From contig JAFGIG010000049.1 in assembly GCA_016929715.1 (NCBI GenBank), positions 1 through 42,796 on the forward strand: a stretch of DNA of 42,796 nt, given 5' to 3'. Position numbers and translations under genes: made by a program. The DNA is from Caldifarciminota bacterium. Lineage in GTDB: Bacteria > SDB-A. Below the pieces are notes generated by a model. The model had not been told where the DNA came from, made no database searches, and worked only from the letters and a program-made list of their open reading frames with translations. Shown in pieces: positions 14,021 to 31,700 of this stretch (positions are counted from its first letter, which is position 1; every line of letters starts with the position of its first letter).

Positions 14021-14024
14021 TTAC

Positions 14025-17000
14025 TTACCCCAAAATAATGTCCCATTTTGTTTTATTCACGGCTGTTTCGAAAGATTTTAGTTCATTTTTAAGGCAATTT
14101 AAGAGTTCGAGAGAGCGCTCAAAATTTTCGCTGGAAGCAGATTCTTCCAGTTTTTGCGATATATCTCTTAATTTTTCAGCCCCGATATATGAAGCGCCGC
14201 CTTTTATTGAATGCGCAAGTTCAGATACCTTCTTATAGTCGAATTTGCTTAAAAACAATGTTAGAGATTCGATTTCTCCCGGAGTTTGTTCGAGGAAAAT
14301 GTCCACGAGTTCCTTGAGCATGGCTCTTTGCTCGGAATATCTTTTGAGAGCTTCCTTGATTTCGAAAATCTCTGGATCGACTTTTTCAACTGCATTATCA
14401 AGCTGTAATCCGAAATCAGAGGGTTCCCTCTTTTGGGTTTCAGGAGTCCATTTATCGAGAATTTCCTTTATATCTTTTACGGTAACGGGCTTTCTCAGGT
14501 AATCGTCCATGCCGCAGTGCAGGCATTTGTCTTTGTCATCTTTGTATATATTCGCCGTCAAGGCAATAATAACAGGCTGTTTAATACTTTGTCCGAATTT
14601 TCTGATTTCTTTAGATGTCTTATACCCATCCATCTCGGGCATCTGAAGGTCCATTAAGACTATGTCGAAGCATTCGGCGGAAGAAATCATTTCCAGAGCA
14701 CCAAGACCGTTGTCGGTATGATATACACGGCACCCGAGTTTTTCCAGAATGGTTTTTACTACTTTCTGGCTGATGAGATTGTCTTCGACAAGAAGCACTG
14801 AGGCGTTGAACTTTTTGTCAAATTCGTTTTTTGCCGTTTTTTTTGATTTGTAGACAGCTTCATCAGGATTGCCGACTAAGGCGGATATGCTCTCTAATCG
14901 CTCGTTATCCGATCTCACTGCTTCTATAAGCGCATTGTAGAGATCATTTCTGCTGACGGGTTTTGAAAGGTATGATGAGAATCCTATTCCCATAAAAGAA
15001 TATTTGTCAGCGGATTTCCCAACGGAGGACATCATTATCAAAGACATTTTGTTTATTCGCGGATCTGATTTAATCGCTCTCCCGAGCGCTTCACCGTCCA
15101 TTTCCGGCATGAGATAATCCAATAGAGCCGCTCTAAAGGGTTCTCCAGAGTTGTGAGCCCTGTATATCGCCTGAAGAGCTTCCGGAGCGTTGGTGAAGGT
15201 TTCATACCGGACGTTCCATGTCTGGAGAAATTCCGAAAATATTTTAAGGTTAATTAGATTGTCGTCGACTATAGCTATTTTAACTCCTGCCAAAGAGTTG
15301 TCATAGAAGTCCTCGTCAAAATAACCGTCGTCAACAGGAAGAGTGAGAGAAAAAGAAAAATCGGATCCTTTGCCATGTTCGCTTTTCACTTCGATTGTTC
15401 CGTTCATAAGTTTGACAAGCTTTTTAGCTATGGATAAGCCGAGTCCGGTTCCGCCGTATTTTCTAGTTGTAGAGCTGTCAACCTGGGTAAAATCTTCGAA
15501 GATCAGATCTCTTTTTTCTTTGGGTATGCCGATTCCCGTGTCCTGAACACTGACCTTAAAAGCCGCGCACTCTCCGGAAATTTCTTTGAATTCGACATCT
15601 ACGAGAACATGACCCTTTTCCGTGAATTTTAGAGCGTTGCCAATAAAATTGAATAGTATCTGTCTTATACGGTTTTCGTCTCCGACGAAGCGGTTCGGGG
15701 CGTCAGGATCGTATCTGAAAATAAGTTCTATTCCTTTCTCGGAAGCAGTGCTTCTGAAAGTTTCTAAAAGGTGGCGGATGAGTTTTTCGAGATTGAATGA
15801 TTTTTCTTCGAGTTCGAATTTGCCGGCTTCGATTTTTGAAAAATCGAGTATTTCGTTTACGACCGACAGTAAAGTGTGAGACGACATAACAGCCATTCTA
15901 AGGTAGTCTTTTTGCTCTTCCGAAAGCTCTGTATTCTCGAGAATGTTGAGCATGCCGATTATGCCGTTTAAGGGCGTTCTGATTTCATGACTCATGTTGG
16001 CGAGAAACTGACTCTTTGTTTTAGTTGCCGTTTCCGCTTCTTCTTTTGCTTTTTTCAGCTGGTCCTCAAATGTTTTCTGCTGGGTGATGTCAAGAGCCAG
16101 TTCGTATCTTACCCATTTGCCGTCAGACCATTTTATTGCTTTGTTGAAATTTTTATACCATTTGCCTGTCTTTTCATTATAGTGAATCCACGTGTAGGAT
16201 TTGCCGAGGTTATCTCCGAAAATGCGGTTATTTGGGCAGAATTCGCAGGGTTCATCGAGATCGTTGATGACTTTGTGGCATTTCTGGCCTATTAAATCGC
16301 CGAAAAGGTTTCGGAGGGTTTTATTTGAGAAAAGAAATTCGTGGTTTTCAGGATCTATTATGTAGATTATCTCTTCAATGCTGTCGAAAACTGAAAGCAG
16401 CTGCAGATGCTCGTTCTTCAGTTTTTTTTCGTTTTCAAGCCTTTCTGAGATATCCCTCGAGATGGAAAAAATAGCCGGTTTGCCTCGCCAAACGCCTTTT
16501 TTTACTACTGTTTCAACGGGGATAAGGGTCCCGGTTTTGGATCTCAGGCTGACGCGCCATGTTTTGTCTTCATTCTCAATCATGTTTTTGAGTATTTTTT
16601 TTGATATTTTTCTCTGATGCGCCGGATAGAGTTGGTGAACTTTCATTCTATATAGAGCGTTTTCAGAGAATCCGAGCCGAGTGAGCAGTTCGTTGTTGGC
16701 TTTAATAATATTGCCATCGAAGTCCAGGACGCAGACGAGATCTTTTAGGTTTTCAAAAACTGTTTTCAGGTCTTCTGCATTGGATCCGGAAAATTCTCTT
16801 AAACCAATAGATCTGTCAACGGACTGCATTAATGCTATTTTTGAAAGGTAGAGGATAGACTCCACCTTTTCAAAATTTAGATCTGAAAATTTTACTGAAT
16901 TTTCCGAAAAAATTAATGAAAATAAAAGGGCTCCGGGAAGTGATACATAGGGAAGAAGAAGGATTTGAAGAGAAGGTTTTGAGGCAGTTTTGAATAAATG

Positions 17001-17255
17001 TATTTTATCCGCTTTTTTCTTTTTATCCCAAAGATGTTCTAAGACAGCCTTTTCAAGGGCGGTTTTCTTTTTTACCGGAAAAGGGGTAAAGATTTTTACA
17101 AATCCGCTGTAACTATAAGAAATAAAAGCAGACTTAAAAGATTTGTCGATTGAATTGAGTTTTTTGCCCGTCCTTAGGAGAATATCCGGAGGATGGGGTT
17201 CTGATAGAAAAAAAAATTCAATTAGCTTTTTGTCTTCAGAAACGCTCGTTTTCAT
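14025..17255 (-). CDS. Hybrid sensor histidine kinase (PAS-PAS-HisKA-HATPase-REC-REC-Hpt)
   Basis: A 1076-residue kinase without transmembrane segments. Residues 1-170 are an unassigned N-terminal region, perhaps a divergent GAF. Two PAS domains follow at about 172-280 ('LVCVLDFDGNIIKANNELL') and 295-400; the second contains a four-cysteine stretch around 'CEFCPN'. HisKA carries H423 in 'FLANMSHEIRTPLNG'. The ATPase has N-box 'NRIRQILFNFIGNALKF', 'DTGIGIP' and 'GGTGLGLSI'. Receiver 1 (about 658-780) has 'AIVDDN' and 'LLDYLMPEMDG'; receiver 2 (about 817-935) has 'LLVEDN' and 'VLMDLQMPEMDG'. The Hpt domain (about 985-1065) has 'LAHSIKGGASYIGA'. This is a complete BarA-like phosphorelay, probably feeding the HD-GYP regulator encoded next. 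The start has no SD; an extended -10 lies 11 bases upstream. Confidence 0.93.
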   Translation of the reverse strand: MKTSVSEDKKLIEFFFLSEPHPPDILLRTGKKLNSIDKSFKSAFISYSYSGFVKIFTPFPVKKKTALEKAVLEHLWDKKKKADKIHLFKTASKPSLQILLLPYVSLPGALLFSLIFSENSVKFSDLNFEKVESILYLSKIALMQSVDRSIGLREFSGSNAEDLKTVFENLKDLVCVLDFDGNIIKANNELLTRLGFSENALYRMKVHQLYPAHQRKISKKILKNMIENEDKTWRVSLRSKTGTLIPVETVVKKGVWRGKPAIFSISRDISERLENEKKLKNEHLQLLSVFDSIEEIIYIIDPENHEFLFSNKTLRNLFGDLIGQKCHKVINDLDEPCEFCPNNRIFGDNLGKSYTWIHYNEKTGKWYKNFNKAIKWSDGKWVRYELALDITQQKTFEDQLKKAKEEAETATKTKSQFLANMSHEIRTPLNGIIGMLNILENTELSEEQKDYLRMAVMSSHTLLSVVNEILDFSKIEAGKFELEEKSFNLEKLIRHLLETFRSTASEKGIELIFRYDPDAPNRFVGDENRIRQILFNFIGNALKFTEKGHVLVDVEFKEISGECAAFKVSVQDTGIGIPKEKRDLIFEDFTQVDSSTTRKYGGTGLGLSIAKKLVKLMNGTIEVKSEHGKGSDFSFSLTLPVDDGYFDEDFYDNSLAGVKIAIVDDNLINLKIFSEFLQTWNVRYETFTNAPEALQAIYRAHNSGEPFRAALLDYLMPEMDGEALGRAIKSDPRINKMSLIMMSSVGKSADKYSFMGIGFSSYLSKPVSRNDLYNALIEAVRSDNERLESISALVGNPDEAVYKSKKTAKNEFDKKFNASVLLVEDNLISQKVVKTILEKLGCRVYHTDNGLGALEMISSAECFDIVLMDLQMPEMDGYKTSKEIRKFGQSIKQPVIIALTANIYKDDKDKCLHCGMDDYLRKPVTVKDIKEILDKWTPETQKREPSDFGLQLDNAVEKVDPEIFEIKEALKRYSEQRAMLKELVDIFLEQTPGEIESLTLFLSKFDYKKVSELAHSIKGGASYIGAEKLRDISQKLEESASSENFERSLELLNCLKNELKSFETAVNKTKWDIILG

Positions 17256-17454: not shown

Positions 17455-18360
17455 TTGATAACCAGGGAATGTCCCGAAATAGGAAGTGTTCTGGAAAATC
17501 TCATCGAAGGCGCTTATGTAATAAGTAAAAACGGTGAGGTTGTTTTCTGGAATAAGGCGGCAGAGAGAATAACAGGCTGGCATCAGGAAGAAGTTATCGG
17601 CAGAAAGTGCTCAGACGGAATTCTTGTGCACCTTGACGAGTTTTGTTCCATGAATTGTTCAGGAAAATGCATGGCCCGTGAAGTTATCATGTCCGGGAAA
17701 ACAGCGGCTGCGGAACTCTATTTTCATCACAAGGAAGGCCACAGAGTCCTTGTCAACACGAAGATGATACCTTTAAGATATAAATCCGAAAAAGCTGATT
17801 TCTGCGTCCAGTTGTTCTGCGAAAATTATTCGGGCAAAGCTTATAAAAAAAGAATCCAACAGCTCGAGAAACTCACTCTTTCTGATCATCTCACAGGGAT
17901 CGGAAACAGAAAAATAGCTGAAATCTCCCTTGAGACAGGTATATACAAGCTTAAAAAATATTCTATTCCCTTCGGACTTGTATTTGCGGATATTGATGAT
18001 TTTAAGACTGTAAACGACGAGTTCGGACACAGCGCCGGAGACAGCGTTTTACAAATGGTCGCTAGAACCATCGAAGGAAATTTAAGACAGGGAGACAAAG
18101 CCTGCAGATGGGGAGGAGAAGAGTTCGTGTTGATTACTGACAATGCCAAAATTCAGGAGACAGGGTTTTTAGCCGAAAGGATAAGAAAACTCGTCGAAAG
18201 CTCGTTTTTAACTATAAACGAAAAAAAAACTGCAGTGACTATTTCCGCTGGAGTAACCGAAGCTCTCAAAGAAGATTCGGTTCAAACATTGATAGACAGA
18301 GCGGACAGCCTAATGTTTTTGAGCAAAAAAAGAGGCAAAAACGCGCTGACTCTCGGTTGA
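17455..18360 (+). CDS. PAS-GGDEF diguanylate cyclase
   Basis: A 301-residue soluble protein. The PAS domain spans about 8-125 ('IEGAYVISKNGEVVFWNKAAERITGW'); it contains four cysteines in 'CSDGILVHLDEFCSMNCSG', C-x3-C after 'LDEF', a feature of some PAS domains with possible metal or redox sensing. The GGDEF domain (about 140-301) has 'LTLSDHLTGIGNRK', 'FADIDDFKTVNDEFGHSAGD', the active-site loop WGGEEF near residue 220, and RQGD five residues before it, a product-inhibition I-site. It should make c-di-GMP from two GTP. The TTG start has GAGGTG about six bases upstream. It probably shares a transcript with tRNA-Val and balances the HD-GYP enzyme encoded 3.4 kb away. Confidence 0.9.
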   Translation: MITRECPEIGSVLENLIEGAYVISKNGEVVFWNKAAERITGWHQEEVIGRKCSDGILVHLDEFCSMNCSGKCMAREVIMSGKTAAAELYFHHKEGHRVLVNTKMIPLRYKSEKADFCVQLFCENYSGKAYKKRIQQLEKLTLSDHLTGIGNRKIAEISLETGIYKLKKYSIPFGLVFADIDDFKTVNDEFGHSAGDSVLQMVARTIEGNLRQGDKACRWGGEEFVLITDNAKIQETGFLAERIRKLVESSFLTINEKKTAVTISAGVTEALKEDSVQTLIDRADSLMFLSKKRGKNALTLG

Positions 18361-18364
18361 AACA

Positions 18365-18943
18365 TCAAACTGTAACGAGCGCCGAAAATCCCATAAAGGC
18401 TATTGATAAAAGAGAAGCCAAAATTAGATTTATTGGCGTCCCCTTGAAGGGTGCAGGAGTGTCAGCTGTTTCGAGCCTTTCTCTGATTCCCGCCATTATA
18501 ACGAGCGCGAGCGTGAATCCTATGCCCGCCCCGAGTGCGTAAACAAGCGAAGCGGCGAGTGAATATTTTTTGAGTATCGCGTCAATGGCTATTCCGAGAA
18601 TAGCGCAGTTCGTTGTGATTAACGGAAGATAAATTCCGAGCGAGTGGTAAAGAGCGGGAACATTTTTTTTCAAAATCATTTCAACGAGCTGAACCAGAGA
18701 GGCTATTATAAGTATGAAAGTTATGGTTTGGAGATACGCGAGACCGAGAGGATTGAGGATGTAATGCTGGAGGGGCCATGTCACGCTTACAGCGAGAACC
18801 ATGACGAATATGACTGCTATGCCCATTCCGACTGCAGAATCGAGTTTCTTGCTCACGCCCAGAAACGGGCAGATTCCGAGAAATCTGCTCAGAACAAAAT
18901 TATTCACAAGAGCAGCTGATATAAATATAAGCAAAAAAATCAT
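18365..18943 (-). CDS. rnfA: Rnf electron transport complex subunit A
   Basis: A 192-residue membrane subunit with six helices, homologous to RsxA and NqrE. The start 'IFISAALVNNFVLSRFLGICPFLGVS' carries the conserved cysteine that, with its counterpart in RnfE, ligates the iron-sulphur cluster lying in the membrane between the two inverted-topology subunits. The second conserved site is 'LPLITTNCAILGIAI'. 'LGAGIGFTLALVIMAGIRERL' closes the domain. It is the last gene of the cluster; normally rnfB follows, but here the next gene is a convergent GGDEF gene four bases away. GAGG lies eight bases before the ATG. Confidence 0.95.
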   Translation of the reverse strand: MIFLLIFISAALVNNFVLSRFLGICPFLGVSKKLDSAVGMGIAVIFVMVLAVSVTWPLQHYILNPLGLAYLQTITFILIIASLVQLVEMILKKNVPALYHSLGIYLPLITTNCAILGIAIDAILKKYSLAASLVYALGAGIGFTLALVIMAGIRERLETADTPAPFKGTPINLILASLLSIAFMGFSALVTV

Positions 18944-18953
18944 GACTTAAACC

Positions 18954-19568
18954 TCATTTTCTTTTTTCAGTGAATACTTTCACGAAAGCCATCATCAGCC
19001 CTAGCATGAGAAAACCACCGGGAGGGAGAATCATTATGAGCATTGGGTTTTTCGAGTAAGATTCACCAAGAATGTTGAAACCGAGGACTGTCCCGCTGCC
19101 GAGAATTTCTCTGAAAGCTCCGAGAAAAAAAAGAGTCAGAGTGAATCCGATTCCCATGCCGATTCCGTCGAGGATTGAAAGAAAAACATTGTTTTTAGAA
19201 GCGAATGCTTCTGCTCTGCCGAGGATTATGCAGTTGACTACAATCAACGGAATGAACAATCCGAGAACCTTAAATAGCTCATAAAAATACGCGTTCATCA
19301 CAAGCTGTATCACTGTGACGAAAGAAGCTATTACGACAATAAATATGGGGATTCTGACTTCATCCGGAACGAATTTTCTGATCAAAGATATGACGGAATT
19401 CGAACCGATGAGAACCGCCGTCGCCGCGATACCCATCGCGATGCCGTTTTTGGCACTTGTCGTGACGGCGAGCGTTGGGCACATTCCGAGGACTAACACG
19501 AGAACGGGATTCTCTTTTACTATGCCTTTGGCGAGTTCGAAAAAAGGTCCTTTCTTTTTCATCTTCAA
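18954..19568 (-). CDS. rnfE: Rnf electron transport complex subunit E
   Basis: A 204-residue membrane subunit, homologous to RsxE and NqrD and paralogous to RnfA with inverted topology. The hallmarks 'NPVLVLVLGMCPTLAVTTSAKNG' and 'FIPLIVVNCIILGRAEAFASKN' each contain the cysteine expected for the shared membrane cluster. 'GIGMGIGFTLTLFFLGAFREILG' follows. The start overlaps the rnfG stop by four bases (ATGA), and rnfA follows after ten bases. Confidence 0.95.
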   Translation of the reverse strand: MKMKKKGPFFELAKGIVKENPVLVLVLGMCPTLAVTTSAKNGIAMGIAATAVLIGSNSVISLIRKFVPDEVRIPIFIVVIASFVTVIQLVMNAYFYELFKVLGLFIPLIVVNCIILGRAEAFASKNNVFLSILDGIGMGIGFTLTLFFLGAFREILGSGTVLGFNILGESYSKNPMLIMILPPGGFLMLGLMMAFVKVFTEKRK

Positions 19569-20146
19569 TTCCTTATTTTCAGAGTGTCGGCTGTTCTGAC
19601 GCTTTGGCTGACGGCTGCACAGACAGCTCTTGGCGAGATTGTAGCTCCGCTTATCGCATCGATATCTCCGCCGTCTTTTAAGACTCCGAAATTGCCGTTA
19701 ATCAGCGTTGAGTTGTCCAAAGATTTTCCTGCGAATTGAAATCTCCATAAGGAATCCTGTATTTTCGCTCCAAGACCGGGCGTTTCAGATTGACTGAGTA
19801 TTTCTACTGAAGTGATGCAATTCTTGGAAAGATCGACGCCTGTCAGGACCATCACTTTTCCAGCGTAGCCGATACCCGTGTCTTCAAAAGCTATTCCGAC
19901 AGTGTCTCCGTTTTTAATGGCGAGATATCCCATTTTTATTGTGTCTCCCGAGTTATTGGTAAGATAGTAGGGGTTTTCTATAGGGTTATTGTCAGGTTCG
20001 AGGGAAGAGAATACATTGTTAAGTTTAAGACCTTTTTCGGCGATTTCAGCCTTTTGTATCGGTTCTTTTGTCTTGTCGTAAACAATGGCGAGCAAAGCGC
20101 CGCAAATAAGCGTTATCAAGGTCAAGGAAAAAATAAGACGTATCAT
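19565..20146 (-). CDS. rnfG: Rnf electron transport complex subunit G (covalent FMN)
   Basis: A 193-residue protein with one N-terminal membrane anchor (about 3-22) and an extracytoplasmic FMN-binding domain. 'DAISGATISPRAV' at about 163-175 contains the SGAT flavinylation motif, where T169 should carry FMN by phosphoester linkage. 'SQSETPGLGAKI' at 118-129 is the second conserved element. An ApbE-type flavin transferase is needed; none is in the window. Both ends overlap neighbouring rnf genes by four bases, implying translational coupling. Confidence 0.94.
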   Translation of the reverse strand: MIRLIFSLTLITLICGALLAIVYDKTKEPIQKAEIAEKGLKLNNVFSSLEPDNNPIENPYYLTNNSGDTIKMGYLAIKNGDTVGIAFEDTGIGYAGKVMVLTGVDLSKNCITSVEILSQSETPGLGAKIQDSLWRFQFAGKSLDNSTLINGNFGVLKDGGDIDAISGATISPRAVCAAVSQSVRTADTLKIRN

Positions 20147-21243
20147 TTGACCTCCTGAATGCCGAATTTTTTAGGCCTTATGAATCTGTCTATAAGAGGC
20201 GTAAAGGCGTTCATTATTAGAATAGAATAACACACGCCTTCGGGGTAACCACCGTAAGTTCTTATAATTACAACGAGAAACCCGGCACATAAACCGAACA
20301 ATATCTGACCTTTGTCAGTCATAGGAGAGGTCACCATGTCGGTTGCCATGAAAAATGCGCCGAGCATTAATCCTCCGGAGACTACGGAAAAAAATGGATT
20401 GCCGCTGAAAAATCCGTTTGTCCCTCCGATTAACCAAGTCAAGATAAATACCACGCCGATAAAAGAAAACGGCATCCTCCAATTGACTATTTTCAGCGCG
20501 CAAAGAAACAAGCCCCCTATTAGCAGAAGCAAAGCGGATGTCTCTCCGAGAGAGCCTCCCGTGTTTCCGAGAAACATATTTTTGATTGTTTCCCATGAGT
20601 AAAGAGTTTGTATAGATCCTCTCGCCTTGTCTTTCTGAAGGTCTGTTGAAGCCGGGTTTGAAAGGACTCTTCTGGCGTCTTTCAAGAGTCCCAGAGGTGT
20701 CGCAGAAGTCATCGCGTCAAGTTCTTCAGATGAGACAACACTTTCGATGTTAGTCCGGAGTTTGTCATTTATAAATCCTGATGCTGTGGAATTCGTCAGG
20801 ACGGGGGATATCCAACTTGCAGTCATGAGGGTCGGATAGGCGGCGACGAGGAAAGCCCTGCCTATAAGTGCGGGGTTGAATATGTTATGACCAAGACCCC
20901 CAAAGACCATTTTTCCGAACCATATTGAGACGAAAGCTCCGATTACGGGAACCCATATCGGGACGGAAGCCGGGAGATTGAAGGAAAGGAGAAGTCCTGT
21001 AAGAGCTGCGCTGCCGTCCGTCAGGCTTTTTAAGCCTCTTTTTCTGAGAATTTCGGCTATAGCTTCCGCTGCTATAGCTGAAATCGTTCCTGTGAGCATT
21101 AGTATCCCTGAGTAGTAGCCGAAAAAAAGAATCGACGCAGCCGCGGAGGGAACCAGCGCCGCGATCACAAGGAGCATGATTCTTCTAGTAGTTGTCGGAT
21201 CCTTTACATGAGGAGAAGAGGAAAGACGCAGATTCTGGATCAT
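20143..21243 (-). CDS. rnfD: Rnf electron transport complex subunit D (covalent FMN)
   Basis: A 366-residue subunit with about ten helices, homologous to RsxD and NqrB. It begins 'LRLSSSPHVKDPTTTRRIM', typical of RnfD. 'LTDGSAALTGLLLSFNLP' and 'FGGLGHNIFNPALIGRAFL' are conserved quinone/flavin-site segments. 'DAMTSATPLG' (176-185) is a variant of the S-x-AT flavinylation motif, with T182 the likely FMN site. 'MGATDMVTSP'-type sequence appears as 'FFMATDMVTSPMTDKGQ'. ATG 21243 was chosen: it has GAGGGG upstream, matches the family N-terminus and overlaps the rnfC stop in ATGA. Upstream in-frame codons would add a spurious leader. Confidence 0.95.
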   Translation of the reverse strand: MIQNLRLSSSPHVKDPTTTRRIMLLVIAALVPSAAASILFFGYYSGILMLTGTISAIAAEAIAEILRKRGLKSLTDGSAALTGLLLSFNLPASVPIWVPVIGAFVSIWFGKMVFGGLGHNIFNPALIGRAFLVAAYPTLMTASWISPVLTNSTASGFINDKLRTNIESVVSSEELDAMTSATPLGLLKDARRVLSNPASTDLQKDKARGSIQTLYSWETIKNMFLGNTGGSLGETSALLLLIGGLFLCALKIVNWRMPFSFIGVVFILTWLIGGTNGFFSGNPFFSVVSGGLMLGAFFMATDMVTSPMTDKGQILFGLCAGFLVVIIRTYGGYPEGVCYSILIMNAFTPLIDRFIRPKKFGIQEVK

Positions 21244-22571
21244 TTTTGAGCCCCTCTCTTTTTCTTGGCTATAATTTTGTTTTTGGCAAGACGTATTAGC
21301 TGGACAAGATCTCTTCTTGCCGGACAGATGAAACTGCATGATCCGCATTCTATGCAGTCTAAAGCGCCGACAGACCCGGCTGTTTCAAGGTCTCCTGTTT
21401 CCGATCTCGCGGCTATTTCATAAGGCATAAGACCAATCGGGCAGACAGTAACACAACGGGAGCATCTTATGCAGTTAGTCTGCGGTTTTTCCGTAGATTC
21501 GGTTTTAGATAAGACGAGAATCCCTGAAGTGCTTTTTATCACTGGAACTCCGTCTGTCCGCTGGCTGACACCCATCATAGGTCCCCCGAAAATTACTTTT
21601 CCCGGTTCGCCAAGATAGCCGCCTAAAAATTCAATGATATCACTGACATAAGTTCCGACTGGGACGAGAAGATTGGCTCTTCTTTTCACCGCGCCCGTCA
21701 CAGTAGTCACTCTCTTAATAAGAGGCTCTCCGGAATAAACGGCGTCATAAAGAGCCGCCGCTGTCCCAACATTCTGAACCAGAACGCCGACATCTACGGG
21801 TAGGCCTCCTGAAGGGACTTCTTTGCCGGTTATGGCATTAATAAGCTGTTTTTCTGCGCCTTGCGGATATTTGGTCTTCATTACTTTGAGCTCAATCCAG
21901 TCTTCACCGGATGTCAGTTTTTCCCATTCGCGGACCGCCTCAGGTTTATTCGATTCAATGGCTATGAATGTTTTTTTTGCGAGGCAGGCTTTCATCATTA
22001 ATTTCGCTCCGAGAAGTATCTTTTCAGGCTTCTCGAGCATGAGTCTGTAATCGGCCGTCAGATAAGGTTCACATTCGGCTCCGTTCAAAATCAATGATTC
22101 ATAGTTTTTGCCTTTTGGAGGAATCAGTTTTACGTGAGTCGGAAAAGATGCTCCTCCCATCCCGACAATGCCCGAATTTTTGGCGATATCGGCTATTTCC
22201 TGAGGAGAGAGTTTTTCCGGGTCTTCGGCTTTGAAATAGTCGTCGGATGTCGGAGTATTGTTTGATTCAGTCAAAATAGTCACCGAAATGCCCCTGCCCG
22301 TCACAGGATGATTTGTATAGTCAACGTCTTTAACTTTTCCGGATACAGGGCTGTGGACGTTGGCGGATATGAACCCTTGTGCTTCTCCTATCATTTGGCC
22401 TTTCTTGACAGGGTCGCCTTTTTTAACAAGAGGCTTGGAAGGAGCTCCTAATTGCTGAAGAAGAGGCACGGATATCTCCGGTCTGACCGGAAACTCGATT
22501 ATGCTCTCGTTTTCGGAAAGTTCTTTTTTCTCAGGAGGATGTATTCCGCCCTTAAAAGTCAATTTTCTCAT
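21240..22571 (-). CDS. rnfC: Rnf electron transport complex subunit C (NADH-binding)
   Basis: A 443-residue peripheral subunit that binds NADH and FMN on the cytoplasmic side. The N-terminal 'GGIHPPEKKELS' and a barrel-sandwich region 'PLVKKGDPVKKGQMIGEA...' open it. 'GIVGMGGASFPTHVKL' is the FMN/NADH loop shared with complex I NuoF. 'LNGAECEPYLTADYRLM' follows. Two 4Fe-4S sites lie near residues 368 and 406: 'CIRCSRCVTVCP' and 'CIECGSCSFICP'. The length is the short form, without the long C-terminal repeats of gammaproteobacterial RnfC. Its start overlaps the ftsX stop by four bases, placing rnf in the same message as ftsEX. Confidence 0.95.
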   Translation of the reverse strand: MRKLTFKGGIHPPEKKELSENESIIEFPVRPEISVPLLQQLGAPSKPLVKKGDPVKKGQMIGEAQGFISANVHSPVSGKVKDVDYTNHPVTGRGISVTILTESNNTPTSDDYFKAEDPEKLSPQEIADIAKNSGIVGMGGASFPTHVKLIPPKGKNYESLILNGAECEPYLTADYRLMLEKPEKILLGAKLMMKACLAKKTFIAIESNKPEAVREWEKLTSGEDWIELKVMKTKYPQGAEKQLINAITGKEVPSGGLPVDVGVLVQNVGTAAALYDAVYSGEPLIKRVTTVTGAVKRRANLLVPVGTYVSDIIEFLGGYLGEPGKVIFGGPMMGVSQRTDGVPVIKSTSGILVLSKTESTEKPQTNCIRCSRCVTVCPIGLMPYEIAARSETGDLETAGSVGALDCIECGSCSFICPARRDLVQLIRLAKNKIIAKKKRGAQK

Positions 22572-23494
22572 TTAGTTCTGTCTCCTTTTTGATTGTCTTC
22601 GTCAATCCAGGGGTCGACGAGATATTTCCTCAAAGACAGCCAACTACCGAAAATGCCGAGAGAGAATCCGATGAAAATGAGAATCATGAACATCGGCAAA
22701 GTAGGAAAGGCTATATTTGTCGCCCATCTGCCGAGCATTTTAAGTGAAAAATATAGGGCTGAAGAAGCAGCTATTCCGGAAAAAATACCGTGTATACTGC
22801 CTTCGAGGAGAAAAGGTTTGGAAACCAGAGAATCCGAAGCTCCGACAAGCTTCATGATGGCTATCTGTTCTCTTCTGGCAAATACGTTGAGTTTTATAGT
22901 ATTTGCAATAACGAAAATCGAAGCTATTGCTATTATCAAGCCTGTTATAAGGTCAGCCATAATAATGGTCTTTACCCACCTGTCGAGAGTGTCAATCCAG
23001 GCTTTTCCGTAGCTGATCTCCTCAACTCTTCCGAGAGAGACGTCGAGAGTGTCCTGAATTTTATGAGAGATGTTTTGTAGATATATCGAAGTCCTGAAAC
23101 CCGGTGAAGGATAAACTATAAACGAAGCCGGCAGGGGGTTAAAATCGGGACCGAGGAGTTCTGTGAATTCCGGAAAATCGAGTTTGAACCTTTCCAGCGC
23201 CTGCTCTTTGGTTATGTAAGTTACAGAATCCACTTCGTCAATAGCTGATATCAGATTATAAAGCGTGTCAGTTCTCGCTTCATATACGCTTTGAACTTTT
23301 TCCTGGGGTATGTCTTTAAGGAAGACTTCTAATTGAACATGTTTCTGAGCAAAATTTATGAGTATTAAAAGATTAATAGTGATGACTATAAAAACTCCGA
23401 AAATAAACAGCGAAAGGGACATCACTCCCATGCTGACGGTGCTCATGAGCTTGTTTTTGAAAATACCTCTTAAAGCTTCACTTATTGTATACAT
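22568..23494 (-). CDS. ftsX: Cell division protein FtsX
   Basis: A 308-residue membrane protein with four helices and a large extracytoplasmic domain between helices 1 and 2. It begins 'ALRGIFKNKLMSTVSMGVMSLSLF'. The loop has 'VFLKDIPQEKVQ', 'VTYITKEQALERF' and 'NPLPASFIVYP', the standard FtsX order. The C-terminal part has 'NTIKLNVFARREQIAIMKLVGASD' and 'LLEGSIHGIFSG'. With FtsE it forms an ABC-type complex that activates peptidoglycan hydrolases at the septum. It overlaps ftsE by 13 bases and rnfC by 4. Confidence 0.95.
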   Translation of the reverse strand: MYTISEALRGIFKNKLMSTVSMGVMSLSLFIFGVFIVITINLLILINFAQKHVQLEVFLKDIPQEKVQSVYEARTDTLYNLISAIDEVDSVTYITKEQALERFKLDFPEFTELLGPDFNPLPASFIVYPSPGFRTSIYLQNISHKIQDTLDVSLGRVEEISYGKAWIDTLDRWVKTIIMADLITGLIIAIASIFVIANTIKLNVFARREQIAIMKLVGASDSLVSKPFLLEGSIHGIFSGIAASSALYFSLKMLGRWATNIAFPTLPMFMILIFIGFSLGIFGSWLSLRKYLVDPWIDEDNQKGDRTK

Positions 23495-24162
23495 CGTTTT
23501 TCTTTCGTGTCCGAAACAATTTTTCCTTGGGTAAGTGAAATGACTCTGAAAGGAGTGTTCTTCACGTAATCGAGCTCGTGGGTCGCCATTATAACTGTTG
23601 TTCCGGAGCTGTTTATATCTTTTAGTATCTGGAATATCTCAGCTGAACCTTCCGGATCCACATTGCCCGTCGGCTCGTCCGCGACGAGGACAAATGGCTC
23701 TCTGACGAGAGCTCTGGCGATGGAAACTTTCTGTTGTTCACCTCCGGAAAGCTGGTATGGATACTGGTGTATTTTATGAGTCAATCTAAGTGAAGCGAGA
23801 ACGGTTGAAATCTTGTCTTTTATCGTCTTTCTTGGAGTTCCTGTAACTAAAAGGACGAAGGCAATATTTTCGTAAATCGTTCTGTCTTCCATGAGCCTGA
23901 AATCCTGAAAAATGACTCCGACTTTTCTTCTCAAAAGGTGCAGTTGGTTTTTGGGTATTCCAGGAATTCTGAAACCTGAAACCTGCACATAACCTTTGTT
24001 TGGGGAAATGGCTCCGTAAATGAGTTTGAGAACAGTGCTCTTTCCTGATCCGCTGGGTCCGACTATGAAAGTATATGAACCCTGATCTATGGTGAAGGTC
24101 AGATCGTCGAGTGCTTTCCAGTCTTTCCTGTATGTTTTGGTGACCTGGTTAAATTCGATCAT
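23482..24162 (-). CDS. ftsE: Cell division ATP-binding protein FtsE
   Basis: A 226-residue ABC ATPase. Walker A is 'GPSGSGKST' (about 36-44), the Q-loop '[20 protein letters not shown]' is the form specific to FtsE, the signature is '[15 protein letters not shown]', Walker B is '[13 protein letters not shown]' and the switch is 'MATHE'. ATP hydrolysis by FtsE drives FtsX to activate wall hydrolases. The start overlaps the transketolase C-subunit stop by four bases. Confidence 0.95.
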
Positions 24163-25097
24163 TTAAAAAGCTCCATTGATTTATTAAATATTGATGTTTC
24201 GTCAAGACCGTAATGAGTGAGCAAATCACTCTCCGAACCGGATCTGCCGAATTGGTCTTCGATGGCGACGAAACGCATTTTCACGGGTCTGTTTCTTGCG
24301 AGAAAAAGAGCTAGAGCTGAACAAAGACCTCCGTTGACTGAATGTTCTTCAGCGACAAGTATTTTATCTGAAATCTCAGCTCTTTCCAAAACAAGTTGTT
24401 GGTCTATGGGTTTTATGGTGTGAACGTCAACGACCGCGGCTTCTATCCCTTGTCTTGAGAGTTTTTCAGCGGCGAGGAGGCTGTTATAGACCATGAGCCC
24501 ATGAGAGAAAATAGTCATATCTGAGCCTTCTCTTATGAGGCAAGCTTTTCCGAGATCAATTTTTTCAGAGTCTTTGTGAATTTCAAAAGTTTTTCCTCTG
24601 GGCAGTCTGAAATAAAAAGGACCCCGAGATTCCGAGGCTTGAGTAATAAGCCTTTTCGTCGAAATTGAATCGCATGGAGCCAATACTTTCATGTTCGGAA
24701 TTACAGTCATCAGGGCTATGTCTTCGATAGCCTGGTGTGAAGACCCGTCTGGACCAACGGTTATGCCGGCATGAGTCGCCACGAGTTTTACGTCAAAATT
24801 GCCGTATGCTACAGTGTTTCTTATCTGTTCCCATGCTCTCCCTGTTAGAAACATGGCGAAAGTGCTCGCAAAAACAGTGAAACCGCATGAAGCTATTCCG
24901 GCTGCAGTGTTGACCATGTCTGCTTCAGCAACTCCCATGTCGAAAAATCTGTCGGGAAAAGCTTCTGCGAATATGGCCGTTTTTGTCGATTTTGACAGAT
25001 CGGCGTCGAGGGCTACAATGTCTGTGTTTTTTTTACCGAGTTCAAGGAGAGTTTTCCCGTAGGCGTCCCTCGGTGATGATGAGACTAAATTATTCAT
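24159..25097 (-). CDS. Transketolase, C-terminal subunit (split form)
   Basis: A 312-residue protein equivalent to the middle (Pyr) and C-terminal domains of transketolase. 'DIVALDADLSKSTKT' and 'FFDMGVAEADMVNTAAGIAS' hold the glutamate that activates the thiamine ring. 'THAGITVGPDGSSHQAIEDIALM' and 'GPFYFRLPRGKT' are transketolase-type rather than DXS-type. 'LVAEEHSVNGGLCSALA' closes the C-terminal domain. It partners with the N-subunit encoded immediately upstream (8-base overlap) to transfer two-carbon ketol units in the non-oxidative pentose phosphate pathway. Split transketolases are common in anaerobes and archaea. Confidence 0.92.
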   Translation of the reverse strand: MNNLVSSSPRDAYGKTLLELGKKNTDIVALDADLSKSTKTAIFAEAFPDRFFDMGVAEADMVNTAAGIASCGFTVFASTFAMFLTGRAWEQIRNTVAYGNFDVKLVATHAGITVGPDGSSHQAIEDIALMTVIPNMKVLAPCDSISTKRLITQASESRGPFYFRLPRGKTFEIHKDSEKIDLGKACLIREGSDMTIFSHGLMVYNSLLAAEKLSRQGIEAAVVDVHTIKPIDQQLVLERAEISDKILVAEEHSVNGGLCSALALFLARNRPVKMRFVAIEDQFGRSGSESDLLTHYGLDETSIFNKSMELFK

Positions 25098-25902
25098 CGA
25101 GGAGACCCATGGCTTTTTCGTATTGTTCTTTTGTCGGAGCTATTCCGTGCCAATCCACGGAATCCTCCATGAAACAGACGCCTTTGCCTTTAACTGTATG
25201 CGCAATGACGGCAAGCGGCGGACCCATGGGGTCTCTTTTAGCGGCAGACTGCAGGGTATCCAGAATCATCCCGTGATCATGTCCGTCAATCTCGATTACG
25301 TCCCAGAGAAACGCTTTAAATTTTTCCGGAATGGGCTCGGGGCTTTTGACGGCATGGATATACCCGTCTATCTGAAGATGGTTGTAGTCTAATATGGCGG
25401 TGAGGTTTCCGCTTTTATAAAAGCCCGCGCTCATTGCCGCTTCCCAGATGTTTCCTTCTTCAATCTCACCATCTCCAAGAACAGCGAATACACGAGAATC
25501 GTATTTTCTGAGTTTCAGTCCGAGAGCCATGCCGTGGGCTATTGAAAGACCTTGACCGAGAGAGCCTGTCGGCGCTTCAACTCCCGGCGTGTCTATATTG
25601 AATGGGTGCCCGTGTAGAATGGATCCCAATTTTCGAAGTGTCCATAAATAGTCTTTAGGAAAATAACCTGCTTGAGCCAACACCGCGTAGAGGGCTGGGG
25701 CTGCGTGGCCTTTGGAAAGGACAAATCTGTCTCTTTGAGGCCAGAGAGGTTCTTCTGATCTGTATCGGAGTATTCCGCCGAAATAGAGGACTGTCAGGAC
25801 GTCTATTATCGAAAGGCTACCTCCGGGATGCCCGGACCCGGCGAGATAAATCATTTTAACAATGTCTTTTCTGAGATTACAAGCCAGCTTTTTTAATGAC
25901 AA
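25090..25902 (-). CDS. Transketolase, N-terminal subunit (split form)
   Basis: A 270-residue protein equivalent to the PP domain of transketolase. 'AGSGHPGGSLSIIDVLTVLYF' has the conserved His-Pro-Gly-Gly, 'RDRFVLSKGHAAPALYAVL' follows, 'GSLGQGLSIAHGMALGLK' is next, and 'LGDGEIEEGNIWEAAMSAG' with 'LDYNHLQIDG' forms the GDG-(27)-N magnesium-TPP site. The start is uncertain. TTG 25902 has no well-placed SD, while GGAGG lies four bases before in-frame CTG 25914; initiation at CTG would add four residues (LLDI). It is the first gene of the long tkt-fts-rnf operon. Confidence 0.9.
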   Translation of the reverse strand: MSLKKLACNLRKDIVKMIYLAGSGHPGGSLSIIDVLTVLYFGGILRYRSEEPLWPQRDRFVLSKGHAAPALYAVLAQAGYFPKDYLWTLRKLGSILHGHPFNIDTPGVEAPTGSLGQGLSIAHGMALGLKLRKYDSRVFAVLGDGEIEEGNIWEAAMSAGFYKSGNLTAILDYNHLQIDGYIHAVKSPEPIPEKFKAFLWDVIEIDGHDHGMILDTLQSAAKRDPMGPPLAVIAHTVKGKGVCFMEDSVDWHGIAPTKEQYEKAMGLLDE

Positions 25903-25942: not shown

Positions 25943-25971
25943 AAGATACAATTTTAATTTTTCAGTGTCAA
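25943..25971 (-). promoter_or_regulatory. Promoter of the tkt-ftsEX-rnf operon
   Basis: On the minus strand a perfect TTGACA (25966-25971), 17 bases, TATCTT (25943-25948). The leader of about 25 bases carries GGAGG. It lies back to back with the promoter at 25997-26025, the two -35 boxes being 25 bases apart. Confidence 0.55.
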
Positions 25972-26054: not shown

Positions 26055-28700
26055 ATGAAACCATACAAGTTTGTTTTAGTTTTTTTCTCGCTATTTTTCT
26101 CTGTAAATTATCTGTCATCCAATACATTTGAAAATTGGATAGATTTCGCAATGTTCTACGACGAATTCAGAGACGCTCAGCCGAATGCGGACCGCACAAA
26201 AATTTTCGCCGTCGGAAGGAGCGTTATCGACACAACTTCGATGATGAATTTCGCCTGTTTTGAAGAAAATGGAGGAATTGTCTGGTTTGGCATCTATGAG
26301 AACATTCCCTATCCAAGTCATGCAAGGGCTATATCAAAAAGTGTGTCCAACGACGGTTTTATAAGTCTCGGAAACGCTTTTTATAGCGGAAGATGGATTC
26401 CTCTTATTGTCAAATTCCAAGACGCAGACTCCTTTTTTATTATTAAAGACACTTTATTGAATTACGCTTCAAGCGAATATTTTCTTACTGCGACAGACAT
26501 AATTCCGTATATTGGAGGATCAGGGTATCTTTTGACGGGATACGCCGATTCAGCAGGTTCTGGGACAATAATCAAACCGTTCATCATTCTAATAGATCAG
26601 GATTTCAGTATAGTATGGGAAAGATACTACAATATTCCGGGTTATTCCCAAAGTTACTCAAATTCGATGACGATGAACGATTCCATTATCGCCTTGACAG
26701 GATATTGCGTAAACCCCTTGAGTTTCGACAAAGATGTATTCGTCTTATTGGCTGGGTTGGACGGAACTTCCATTGATGCCAGGGCATGGGGTTATTTGGA
26801 CGGAAATGAAATAGGGGAATGTATTGTCGCGTTGATAGGTTATCCTGACAGATTCGCCGTAACAGGCATTTGGAGGGATTCTCTTTTTGTAATGCTCTAT
26901 GGGGGAGAAGATACTCTCTGGTGCCGTCAATACATATTCGATTCGGCATTATCCAACTGCGGCAAGGGAATAGTTATTGCTCCCGATTACTCCTTAACTG
27001 TTTCCGGTTTTACAGGGGACATATCGAATATGATGATAACGGGACTTGTTCTTTTGAACGTCAGCAACTCCAATGGACAGGTTTTGTGGTCAAATTATGT
27101 CGTCGAGCCGGGGCTGAGAGCGGGATTCAACATATTCTTTGACGGGCTGGATTCATCGTATATCGTTCCGGGACTTATTACCCAAAACCCTCTCGGAGAC
27201 ACCATGCACGACGCTTTCCTTCTCAAGTCGGACCTTCACGGTTTCATACATCACGAATTCAGCTACATTTTTTCCGGGATGGGCGACGACGAATTCAACT
27301 CAGTTTTTTCTATGGGCGATTCGTCTTTCACTTACGGGTATCTAATCGCCGGGTTCGTCGACACCTCAGGGACGGACACAGACATGTATCTTTCATTTCT
27401 CGACACAAGAGGGGTTCCTCTCTGGGAAGGCATTATAGGAGAACCCGGATACAGCGAAAAAGCCAAAGCTTTTGTTCACGACCCTGTTCTTCAAAAGACG
27501 ATGGTCTCAGGGACTGTCGAATACGGATCGAACCGCGATATTTTCTGTTATCATTTCGACGCGGACTGGAACCTTATTGATACATTTTACTACCATCAAG
27601 ACACTTCGAGATTTACCCTCTACGACATCACGCATTTTGAAGATTCTACTAAGCTCAAAGGTTTTATTATGACCGGGGCGACCAGATCTACAACAAAAGA
27701 CTCGGTTGAAAAGATTTTCGCGATTAAAATTGACGAAAATTTCAACGTTCTCTGGGACACCGTCTATGAGTCAATTGAAAGCAGAACAGCCTATTGTCTC
27801 GTTCAGGACTCGTCGTTCGGTAAGCTTAAAGGCTTTATTATGACCGGAGCGACCAGATCCACCACAAAAGACACGATTGACAGGGTTTTCGCAATGAAGA
27901 TATCAGAAGACGGAAGTGTGGTATGGGAACAGACTTATTTCGAGGGCGAAGCTAAAGCCGCTATGAACTGCGACGCGGGTGTTATACTTATAGGCTACAG
28001 GCAGAGAGGTGACAAAGACCTTTTCGCCGCTGTCATCGACAGGGACAACGGTAATATTATCTGGCTCACCGACCCGGTCTTAGTCGGAGATCAAGTCGGA
28101 TACGACCTGACAAGGGCGCACGACACAATTTATGTCTGCGGTTATTCCAAAAATTCGATACAGTCGCCTACGAATTTCATGAATGCCGTGATAATGAAGT
28201 TTGACAGGTTTTCAAATTACCTGGGATTAGTCGAATTCATTGAAGACGGAAATCAGGCGGCTTATTCCATTGATTACGTCAGAGACAACTCTTTTGTATG
28301 GTCCGGTTTTACGGATTACGACGGTCAGAGCAACAGAGACGCGATTTTCGAAAAAGCGTATTCAGGATATATATACACGGTTTCAGTTGAAGAAAACCCT
28401 GATGACCCCTCGAAATTTCAGAGGCCTTTCGCACTTTTTTCGCCCTCGAAAATTGTTTTTTCGGAATCTGTCGAACTCGGATTCCATGTTTTCAGCGAAT
28501 GCCCTGTGGAGTTCAGAGTTTTCGACGCGACGGGCAGGGAAGTCAAAACTTTTGCCAGGTCTTTTCTCTTGCCGGGATACTATGGTTATATTTGGAGGGG
28601 AGAGGACAACAGCGGAGTTAAACTGCCGTCAGGAAGTTATTTTTTCTCTTTGTCGTCCGGAAATTTCAGAGAGACAGGGAAACTGCTGTTAGTGAAGTAA
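26055..28700 (+). CDS. Large secreted repeat protein with FlgD-Ig-like C-terminal tail
   Basis: An 881-residue exported protein. The signal peptide is about residues 3-22. The body repeats strands of the form (L/V)-T/S-G-x, such as 'YLLTGYADSAG', 'IALTGYCVN', 'FAVTGIW', 'LTVSGFTGD' and 'TMVSGTVEYGS', each followed by an I/L-K-x-D strand and a 'VxW' strand. This pattern points to one or two beta-propellers of the delta-60/Kelch-like kind. An exact internal repeat of 17 residues occurs at 533-549 and 590-606. The last 90 residues ('VEFRVFDATGREVKTF', 'GYIWRGEDNSGVKLPSG', 'GKLLLVK') resemble FlgD-Ig or T9SS-type tails. It is probably cell-surface or extracellular; ligand unknown. It is transcribed away from the tkt operon. 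Confidence 0.75.
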   Translation: MKPYKFVLVFFSLFFSVNYLSSNTFENWIDFAMFYDEFRDAQPNADRTKIFAVGRSVIDTTSMMNFACFEENGGIVWFGIYENIPYPSHARAISKSVSNDGFISLGNAFYSGRWIPLIVKFQDADSFFIIKDTLLNYASSEYFLTATDIIPYIGGSGYLLTGYADSAGSGTIIKPFIILIDQDFSIVWERYYNIPGYSQSYSNSMTMNDSIIALTGYCVNPLSFDKDVFVLLAGLDGTSIDARAWGYLDGNEIGECIVALIGYPDRFAVTGIWRDSLFVMLYGGEDTLWCRQYIFDSALSNCGKGIVIAPDYSLTVSGFTGDISNMMITGLVLLNVSNSNGQVLWSNYVVEPGLRAGFNIFFDGLDSSYIVPGLITQNPLGDTMHDAFLLKSDLHGFIHHEFSYIFSGMGDDEFNSVFSMGDSSFTYGYLIAGFVDTSGTDTDMYLSFLDTRGVPLWEGIIGEPGYSEKAKAFVHDPVLQKTMVSGTVEYGSNRDIFCYHFDADWNLIDTFYYHQDTSRFTLYDITHFEDSTKLKGFIMTGATRSTTKDSVEKIFAIKIDENFNVLWDTVYESIESRTAYCLVQDSSFGKLKGFIMTGATRSTTKDTIDRVFAMKISEDGSVVWEQTYFEGEAKAAMNCDAGVILIGYRQRGDKDLFAAVIDRDNGNIIWLTDPVLVGDQVGYDLTRAHDTIYVCGYSKNSIQSPTNFMNAVIMKFDRFSNYLGLVEFIEDGNQAAYSIDYVRDNSFVWSGFTDYDGQSNRDAIFEKAYSGYIYTVSVEENPDDPSKFQRPFALFSPSKIVFSESVELGFHVFSECPVEFRVFDATGREVKTFARSFLLPGYYGYIWRGEDNSGVKLPSGSYFFSLSSGNFRETGKLLLVK
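27651..27872 (+). repeat. Recent in-frame duplication within the secreted propeller gene
   Basis: 27651-27701 and 27822-27872 encode the identical peptide KLKGFIMTGATRSTTKD and agree at 46 of 51 bases. The 171-base (57-residue) offset equals one repeat unit. All five differences are synonymous. Confidence 0.85.
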
Positions 28701-28753: not shown

Positions 28754-31700
28754 ATGAATTTTAGGCTCAATTCTATTCCGCCTTTCATAGTTGATAAACA
28801 CAGAAAAAATATAACACACGGCTGTTTCAGGGGATCAGTTTTATTTGTCGACATATCCGGGTTCACGTCGTTGACAGAAAAACTCCTGGGGAAGGGCGAA
28901 AGGGGAGTCGAGGAGATATCTAAAATAATCTTTAGAGTCTTCGACCCCCAGATAGAAGCTGTATTCGAGTCCGGAGGTTTTGTCAGTTATTTCGCCGGAG
29001 ACGCTTTCATGGCTGTATTTGAAAATGACTCGGGAGAAAGAGCCTTTTGTGCAGAGAAGAAGATAAGGAAATGGTTTGACACTCAATATATAACCTCTTC
29101 ATCAGATAAAGACAGGCGACTCGACGTTCATTTTTCGAGAGGAAGAGGAAATATTGAATGGGGAATATACAATACATTGAAGAGAAAGATGTTTTACTTA
29201 AAGGGAGAGGCTTTTGATAGAGCTTTCTTTGAAACGGCATATAAAGGTGTTTTTGGAGACATAAACAATCATCCAATATCTTTTTCTGAATTTTCAAAAA
29301 TAAAAACAGACGATTACATATTAGATCTCTATGAAGAAAAAGAAGTGGTAAAAACATCTTCTTGCCCTGAGATAAGAGACATTGTATCCATTTTTCTTCA
29401 ACTCAAAGGTTTCCAAACGCATGAAGAGATTTCTGCCATAGGTGCTTTCACTTCTGAAAAAGCGGCGTCATTCGGAGGTATTCTCAACAAACTGATTTTC
29501 TGCGACAAAGGGCTGACTGCATTGGTCTTTTTCGGAGCGCCTCTTGCCCTCGAATCACCCGAAGAAAAAGCTCTTTCTTTCGCATCGAAATTCAGAGACA
29601 AATCCAAATCCATTTTTTCGGACAAGAGATGGAGAGGAGGCATCACGAGAGGTCAGGTCTTCGTGGGGCTGACTGGAGGCAGAAGGTGCAATGAATGGAC
29701 AGCCCTCGGAGATTCTGTCAACACTGCATCAAGGCTGATGTCTCTGTCAAGCTGGGGAAACGTGACAGTGAGCGAAAAAATAGTTAAGAAATCAAATGCT
29801 TATTCTTTCACTTACGCGGGTCTTGCGGAACTCAAGGGAAAGGAATCCGCCGCGCCGATTTTCTTTTTTGAAGGACAGACTGAAAAAATTCCTGAAGGGA
29901 AAAAGACGCCTTTCATCAACCGCGAAAGGGAGAAAAAATGGCTCCAGTCTTGTTTAATCCCGCCTGTGGAGGGGAAATTTGGAGGGCTGAACTGCCTGAC
30001 CGGGGAGTCAGGGCTCGGGAAGACAAGACTTATTGACGAGGTAAGAAAGGAATCTTCTCTTGAGTGGATAAATCTATTTTGCAAAGGGCATTTGAATAAG
30101 GCTTTTTATCCTGTGACGATGTGGATGAGGACTTATTTCGAACTTTCTGACGGCGACGACCTCGCATCTTTCAGGGCAAAACTCGGCAGAGTTTTTAACC
30201 AGAGAAGAGCCGGTTTAGAAGAAATAGGAGAAGAGGTTATTTTTCTGGCATCTTTAGCAGACATACGGATTGAAGATGAAATCCTGAAAGAGACGGAACC
30301 GAAATTCAGAGTTGAAAAACAGATTTTTTCATTCAAGTCTTTGCTGAAAATATTGAGCGAGAACAACCCTTTAGTCGTTTTCATAGACGACATGCAGTTT
30401 TCCGATGAGTTTACGGCGGAACTCATCGCTTCTCTTTCAAAAAATACAGAATCTATCCCTATGACTGTCATCATCTCGGTCTGGCCTAACTATTTCGAGA
30501 AAAACGAAACTTTCAAACCTGTGAAGTTCAACTCTGATTTTGTCATGAAAGGGATTCCTGATGAAGAAATTTACAGGGCTATAGTCAAGAGGATCACGGA
30601 CACCGAACCGACAGGCAAGTTTATAGCCCTGCTCAGAGAAAAGGCTAAAAATGTTCCTCTCTTCTGTGAACAGCTAGTCCTTCACCTGAAAGAGACAAAT
30701 TCTCTATTCAAGTCGCCCGACGGCAGGTGCGCTGTCAAAGAAGAAGACCTAAAAATACCATCTGAGATAGGCGACCTTCTTACGAGCAGACTCGACAGGC
30801 TCGATGTTGACCTCAGAGAAGCGTTGAAGCACGCTTCTGTGCTGGGACTGCAGTTTGAGGAGTCGGTCTTCAGAAACCTGATTTTCAATAGCAATTCGTT
30901 CGGGTCTGATATGAATAAAGACTATCTTCACAGGGCAAAGGAAGAAGGTCTTATTGAGGAAATTCTTGGAGACATTGAAGGACACTGGTTTTTCAGAAGC
31001 CCTATTCTCAGGGACATCTCATACAACCTTCAACTGCCGAGCGTCAGGGGGGAACTCCACGGTATAGCCGCCGAATCTATTAACCTCATACACGCAGACA
31101 ATATTGCTCCATACTACGACGACCTGATTTACCACTACAGAGAAGCTGGGGAGACTGAAAAAGAAATAAGATTATTGAATTACGGAGCTCAAAGAGCGGA
31201 GCAGAGATATGAAAACAGAAAAGCTGTGAGCTATTATCTTAGATACGCCGAATTGATTTCTCAAAAATGCTCGCCAGATGTCGAAGCCGAACTTTTCAGA
31301 GTTTTCAAAAAAACAGGATACATATACAGCATCATCGGCGATTATCAGACGGCGTTGGGATATTACGAAAAAGCGCTATCCCCGGCTCTTTTTTCAGGAG
31401 AAAGCCATAAAATCGCTGATGTATCAATAGCGATGGGAGATCTCTATAAAAACACGGGGGACTATGAATCAGCAGTAAAAACTCTTGAGAAAGCGATGGA
31501 ACATGCCGAGAAAATAGGGAATGAACCTCTTTTGGGAGAAATATACAATACTCTCGGTATGACTGAACTCGATCTTTCAGATTTTGAAAAAGCCCATGTA
31601 TATTTTAGAAGAGCTCTTGAAATGTCCGAAAAAAGCGGAGATATAAAATTGAAAACTCTGATTTCAACAAACATTGGACTTTTATACAACCAAGAGGACT

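Follow-up and report, generated by a model that had tools for sequence, protein, structure and literature searches.

The window analysed here (a stretch of 42,796 nucleotides) carries five Rnf genes at the end of a nine-gene operon without rnfB, and the genome also has a full-length rnfB, beside lgt on a different contig. By far the most probable explanation (at about 0.9) is that the two loci together encode a complete and ordinary six-subunit Rnf complex, a ferredoxin:NAD+ oxidoreductase pumping Na+ or H+.

The nine-gene operon and its surroundings

Nine genes of the minus strand (tktN, tktC, ftsE, ftsX, rnfC, rnfD, rnfG, rnfE and rnfA) span positions 25902-18365 of the window (Table 1). From tktN to rnfE the consecutive genes overlap by 8, 4, 13, 4, 4, 4 and 4 bases, and the only one of the eight junctions without an overlap is the 10-base gap between rnfE and rnfA. 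Open reading frames, strand and gene families all match what a sequence-only reading of this DNA had described.

The five Rnf proteins (RnfC, D, G, E and A) all score above the cut-offs of their NCBIfam Rnf subfamilies, and none qualifies as an Nqr-type subunit (NqrA/B/C/D/E), each scoring higher as Rnf and staying below the Nqr cut-offs. RnfC retains its Fe-S and FMN domains, and motifs of the covalent-FMN type are found in RnfG (DAISGAT) and RnfD (DAMTSAT). The start of rnfD was taken at the ATG at 21243 and not at the first ATG of the open reading frame (21348), because a start at the latter gives a 109-base overlap with rnfC, and the subfamily model aligns only from residue 45 of this longer form. 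The cell-division pair was assigned to FtsEX from an FtsE above its cut-off together with an FtsX containing both FtsX Pfam domains (PF18075 and PF02687), the best NCBIfam FtsX models giving 188 bits, under their cut-offs.

Table 1. Features of the operon and its immediate neighbourhood in the window.
Feature	Position	Strand	Evidence
Promoter-like site TTGACA-17-TATCTT, candidate operon promoter	25943..25971	-	consensus match 10/12
tktN, transketolase N-terminal half (TPP domain)	25090..25902	-	PF00456; NF004559 positions 17-280
tktC, transketolase C-terminal half	24159..25097	-	PF02779 + PF02780
ftsE, cell-division ABC ATPase	23482..24162	-	TIGR02673, 269.2 bits (cut-off 264.9)
ftsX, cell-division ABC permease-like protein	22568..23494	-	PF18075 + PF02687
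rnfC, NADH/FMN and Fe-S subunit	21240..22571	-	TIGR01945, 536.6 bits (cut-off 246)
rnfD	20143..21243	-	TIGR01946, 344.8 bits (cut-off 207); motif DAMTSAT
rnfG	19565..20146	-	TIGR01947, 143 bits (cut-off 102); motif DAISGAT
rnfE, membrane subunit	18954..19568	-	TIGR01948, 279.3 bits (cut-off 213.4)
rnfA, membrane subunit (final operon gene)	18365..18943	-	TIGR01943, 275.8 bits (cut-off 229.3)
PAS-GGDEF gene (diguanylate cyclase family), convergent, outside the operon	17455..18360	+	domain matches

No rnfB was found within the operon or the surrounding region of the window. The place where it could stand is filled by the convergent PAS-GGDEF gene, the opposite-strand neighbour that the earlier reading had already pointed out, whose end (18360) lies four bases from that of rnfA (18365). 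Other neighbours include a hybrid histidine kinase, which contains two receivers and an Hpt domain and is followed by an HD-domain response regulator (13022-17255, minus strand); in G001, a genome of the same genus, this kinase/regulator pair is also beside the operon (L124, 3602-7827), with no GGDEF gene between the pair and rnfA. The gene at 28754-32263 (plus strand) encodes a large protein that combines adenylate cyclase, AAA and TPR domains; the product of the adjoining gene (26055-28700) has a FlgD-like domain at its C-terminus.

The candidate promoter is situated about 40 bases before tktN. It is weak evidence because such sites are numerous here (21 against 12.0 +/- 3.1 expected by chance), several of them inside the operon, and the single promoter proposed in the sequence-only reading is plausible only. 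No terminator-like site was found after rnfA. The overlaps between genes suggest that tkt, ftsEX and rnf are expressed together, and one transcript for all nine genes is plausible.

rnfB and apbE elsewhere in the genome

The genome that contains the window is a draft of 1.98 Mb in 142 contigs (94.67% complete). A search of it for the RnfB family gave a single gene above the cut-off (TIGR01944, 117.6 bits against 68.7), coding for 269 aa on the minus strand of contig C64 (3178-3987), in the gene order rbfA-nrnA-rnfB-lgt-cvpA-htpG. The protein has the features that define RnfB, namely a membrane helix, the FeS domain (PF04060) and ferredoxin clusters (Fer4 domains, with the ferredoxin motifs present), in the domain layout of an ordinary RnfB, and its closest solved chains are the RnfB subunits of the Rnf complexes 9eri and 7zc6. 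The idea that lgt-linked RnfBs stand out by a terminal ferredoxin domain with a single cluster was discarded, because in many phyla RnfBs encoded within operons commonly have this form too. ApbE is also present in one copy, on a third contig, near genes encoding NusG-II and heptaprenyl-diphosphate-synthase component I domains. The RnfA/RnfE pair is single in the genome, which therefore has one Rnf/Nqr-type complex.

The sequence-only reading had described RnfB as the Fe-S subunit on the ferredoxin side, in agreement with the literature, and had reasoned that the complex must either obtain it from elsewhere or use another electron donor, naming a genome search for rnfB and apbE as the check. 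The search found one of each; the complete rnfB on C64 bears out the first option and leaves the second unsupported. The one-operon layout that includes rnfB is absent here, and this layout is the usual gene order rather than a requirement of the enzyme.

In Rnf complexes, the electrons of reduced ferredoxin enter at RnfB and pass through clusters and the covalent flavins of RnfD and RnfG to RnfC, where they reach NAD+, with export of an ion. In this organism RnfC, D, G, E and A would come from the end of the tktN-tktC-ftsE-ftsX-rnfCDGEA operon, RnfB from the lgt-adjacent locus and the flavin-attaching ApbE from the third contig, and these products would come together at the membrane in the way known from other Rnf complexes. 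The detached RnfB would then receive electrons from reduced ferredoxin, these would travel over Fe-S clusters and the covalent flavins of RnfD and RnfG to RnfC, and NAD+ would be reduced there while an ion is expelled. No alternative donor is called for, because all the parts of Rnf, flavin-site motifs included, are present in the genome.

A separate observation concerns the V/A-type ATPase proteolipids of relatives (L213, L212, L211 and L214), which contain PGTQG and VETYA motifs reminiscent of Na+-binding V-ATPase rotors; an ATPase proteolipid was found only in the relatives and not in the window's own draft genome.

Gene order in relatives and the history of the split

The gene-order comparison that the earlier reading had recommended showed no rnfB adjacent to the operon in the genus or the family. 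G001 and, within the family, G003 share exactly this nine-gene order, again without rnfB and with other genes behind rnfA, and have rnfB adjoining lgt elsewhere; RnfB identity is 67-73% in the kin that carry the same operon. Only the more distant G103 has an unbroken tktN-tktC-ftsE-ftsX-rnfC-D-G-E-A-rnfB, with rnfB 19 bases after rnfA and lgt elsewhere. Another genome of the genus, G002 (called 100% complete), is without rnf genes, ftsX and the split transketolase, either through a real loss at several loci or through an assembly gap or missing contigs, and we rejected it as evidence of co-loss because lgt, nrnA and rbfA are missing too.

Among 80 rnfC loci fetched from the genome collection, one (L045, of genome G060) had tktN-tktC-ftsE-ftsX in front. 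Here Rnf is split three ways (L045, L152 and L151), with rnfC behind tkt-ftsEX, rnfDGEA on another contig and rnfB beside lgt on a third. In G060 and its nearest relatives (G060-G069) rnfB is beside lgt in 10 of 10 genomes and rnfC directly behind ftsX in nine, the exception being the draft G061, whose contigs end inside rnfC. The order tktN-tktC-ftsE-ftsX-rnfCDGEA is repeated in G061 and G068, and G062-G067 have ftsE-ftsX with rnfC, plus rnfDGEA as far as the contigs reach, with no tkt seen in front. Five more genomes (G072, G080, G086, G091 and G107) possess tktC-ftsE-ftsX without rnf behind ftsX, preceded by tktN in four of them and cut by a contig end in the fifth. The tkt-ftsEX segment is a conserved block in its own right, whether or not rnf follows; tkt, ftsEX and rnf come apart in evolution, with ftsX-rnfC as the most durable link in the genomes that have the split. 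The union of these genes, which the sequence-only reading had called unusual, is indeed so, yet it is conserved, and its tkt-ftsEX part recurs in several relatives. Among the matches listed, rnfC and rnfB are on different contigs in several other genomes, for which contig ends could account, and an unlinked rnfB may not be rare among related genomes.

Other departures in rnf organization were seen among the loci fetched. Six loci of Planctomycetota (L060, L063, L069, L075, L076 and L080) have rnfC-rnfD-rnfG, neither rnfE nor rnfA being recognisable in the sequence retrieved, and could represent a reduced or divergent complex, and in one of Omnitrophota (L099) the order is rnfC-rnfG-rnfD-rnfE, with G and D swapped.

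These rearrangements bear on the possibility that tkt-ftsEX and rnfCDGEA, though adjacent, are transcribed as separate units. The genomes with ftsEX-rnf and no tkt (G062-G067), those with tkt-ftsEX and no rnf, the three-way split of G060, in which rnfC stays with ftsX and rnfDGEA is elsewhere, and the promoter-like sites within the operon all speak for it; nevertheless, seven overlapping junctions, that of ftsX and rnfC included, make it unlikely, though it deserves to be kept in mind. It would in any case be compatible with a six-subunit Rnf encoded at two loci.

The remaining alternatives concern rnfB itself. The gene beside lgt could have been taken over for another task and not be a subunit of this complex, as its different locus, with lgt and nrnA, might suggest. 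Nonetheless, the genome has no other Rnf or Nqr membrane set, the domain layout is that of an ordinary RnfB and the rnfB-lgt pair is present in each split-operon genome examined, which together render such a takeover improbable. Still harder to defend is a complex that works without RnfB, fed by another donor or a polyferredoxin: it would fit an operon without rnfB and the other ferredoxin-type proteins encoded in the genome, but not the conservation of a full-length rnfB in the kin with the same operon, nor the Fe-S and FMN domains kept in RnfC. Least credible of all is that rnfB was lost locally or that the operon end was misassembled, for which the fragmentation of the draft and the position of rnfB at exactly this point in G103 could be cited, but the junction lies mid-contig in the window, G001 and G003 are separate assemblies with the same order and other genes after rnfA, and the relatives of G060 likewise have other genes there.

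What we observe seems to be an ancient relocation of rnfB passed on by descent, because the same split is found in the genus, in the family and in the G060 group, and the lgt-linked RnfBs group together. In a quick tree of 79 RnfBs, one branch (SH-aLRT 92) separates the 13 lgt-linked sequences from the others, among them the operon-borne rnfB of G103. A quick tree of 92 RnfCs places the three rows of the window's group apart from the ten G060-type rows, requiring two changes, with the RnfC of the window adjoining a group with Bacteroidota rows (SH-aLRT 86). A single relocation in an ancestor is probable and compatible with both trees, although not proven, since the RnfC tree splits the group in two. 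The direction was most likely away from the operon end, where G103 keeps rnfB. The double linkage of ftsX with rnfC and of rnfB with lgt in two distant groups is hard to obtain by chance, and therefore one rearrangement, inherited or jointly transferred, seems the most likely origin.

Relation to known Rnf and Nqr systems

Published rnf operons have the orders rnfABCDGE, rnfBCDGEA and rnfCDGEAB (PMC4014512, PMC3534657). As in Acetobacterium woodii and Clostridium tetanomorphum (rnfCDGEAB; 9eri, 7zc6), the genome encodes six subunits with the C-D-G-E-A order, and the RnfB and RnfD of this organism are nearest to chains of these solved complexes; unlike them, rnfB is beside lgt and not last in the operon, which begins with tkt and ftsEX. 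The rnfBCDGEA operon of Bacteroidota/Chlorobi (PMC3534657, PMC4014512) shares the CDGEA core, and it is to a group with Bacteroidota rows that the RnfC is adjacent, but rnfB leads there and is unlinked here. Literature searches, covering few subscription journals, found no paper on rnfB beside lgt, rnf behind ftsEX, tkt-ftsEX-rnf or the rnfB of WOR-3, and gave only unrelated matches for a detached or missing rnfB.

Na+-NQR (nqrABCDEF) has been proposed to stem from an rnf operon that was duplicated and then lost its rnfB (PMC4014512). The core rnfCDGEA without rnfB is homologous to nqrABCDE, whereas the subunits here are of the Rnf type, with Fe-S and FMN domains in RnfC, and rnfB is kept in the genome, so that the likeness to the proposed first step of Nqr is only in gene order. 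The unlinking of rnfB from the core, retained across a wide range of bacteria, might let the cell set the amount of its ferredoxin-input subunit separately, so that the core may even run with other partners; we regard this as improbable, but if true, a separately set RnfB would be a living parallel of the rnfCDGEA-without-rnfB step proposed for the origin of Nqr.

For annotation, the absence of rnfB from an operon is an unsafe sign of an RnfB-less complex, and in this part of the bacterial tree, where rnfB is often unlinked, the neighbourhood of lgt is the place to look for it. Both conserved linkages, ftsEX-rnf and rnfB-lgt, are usable as a marker for these lineages, and they show that rnfCDGEA and the gene for its ferredoxin subunit can be passed on as unlinked loci.
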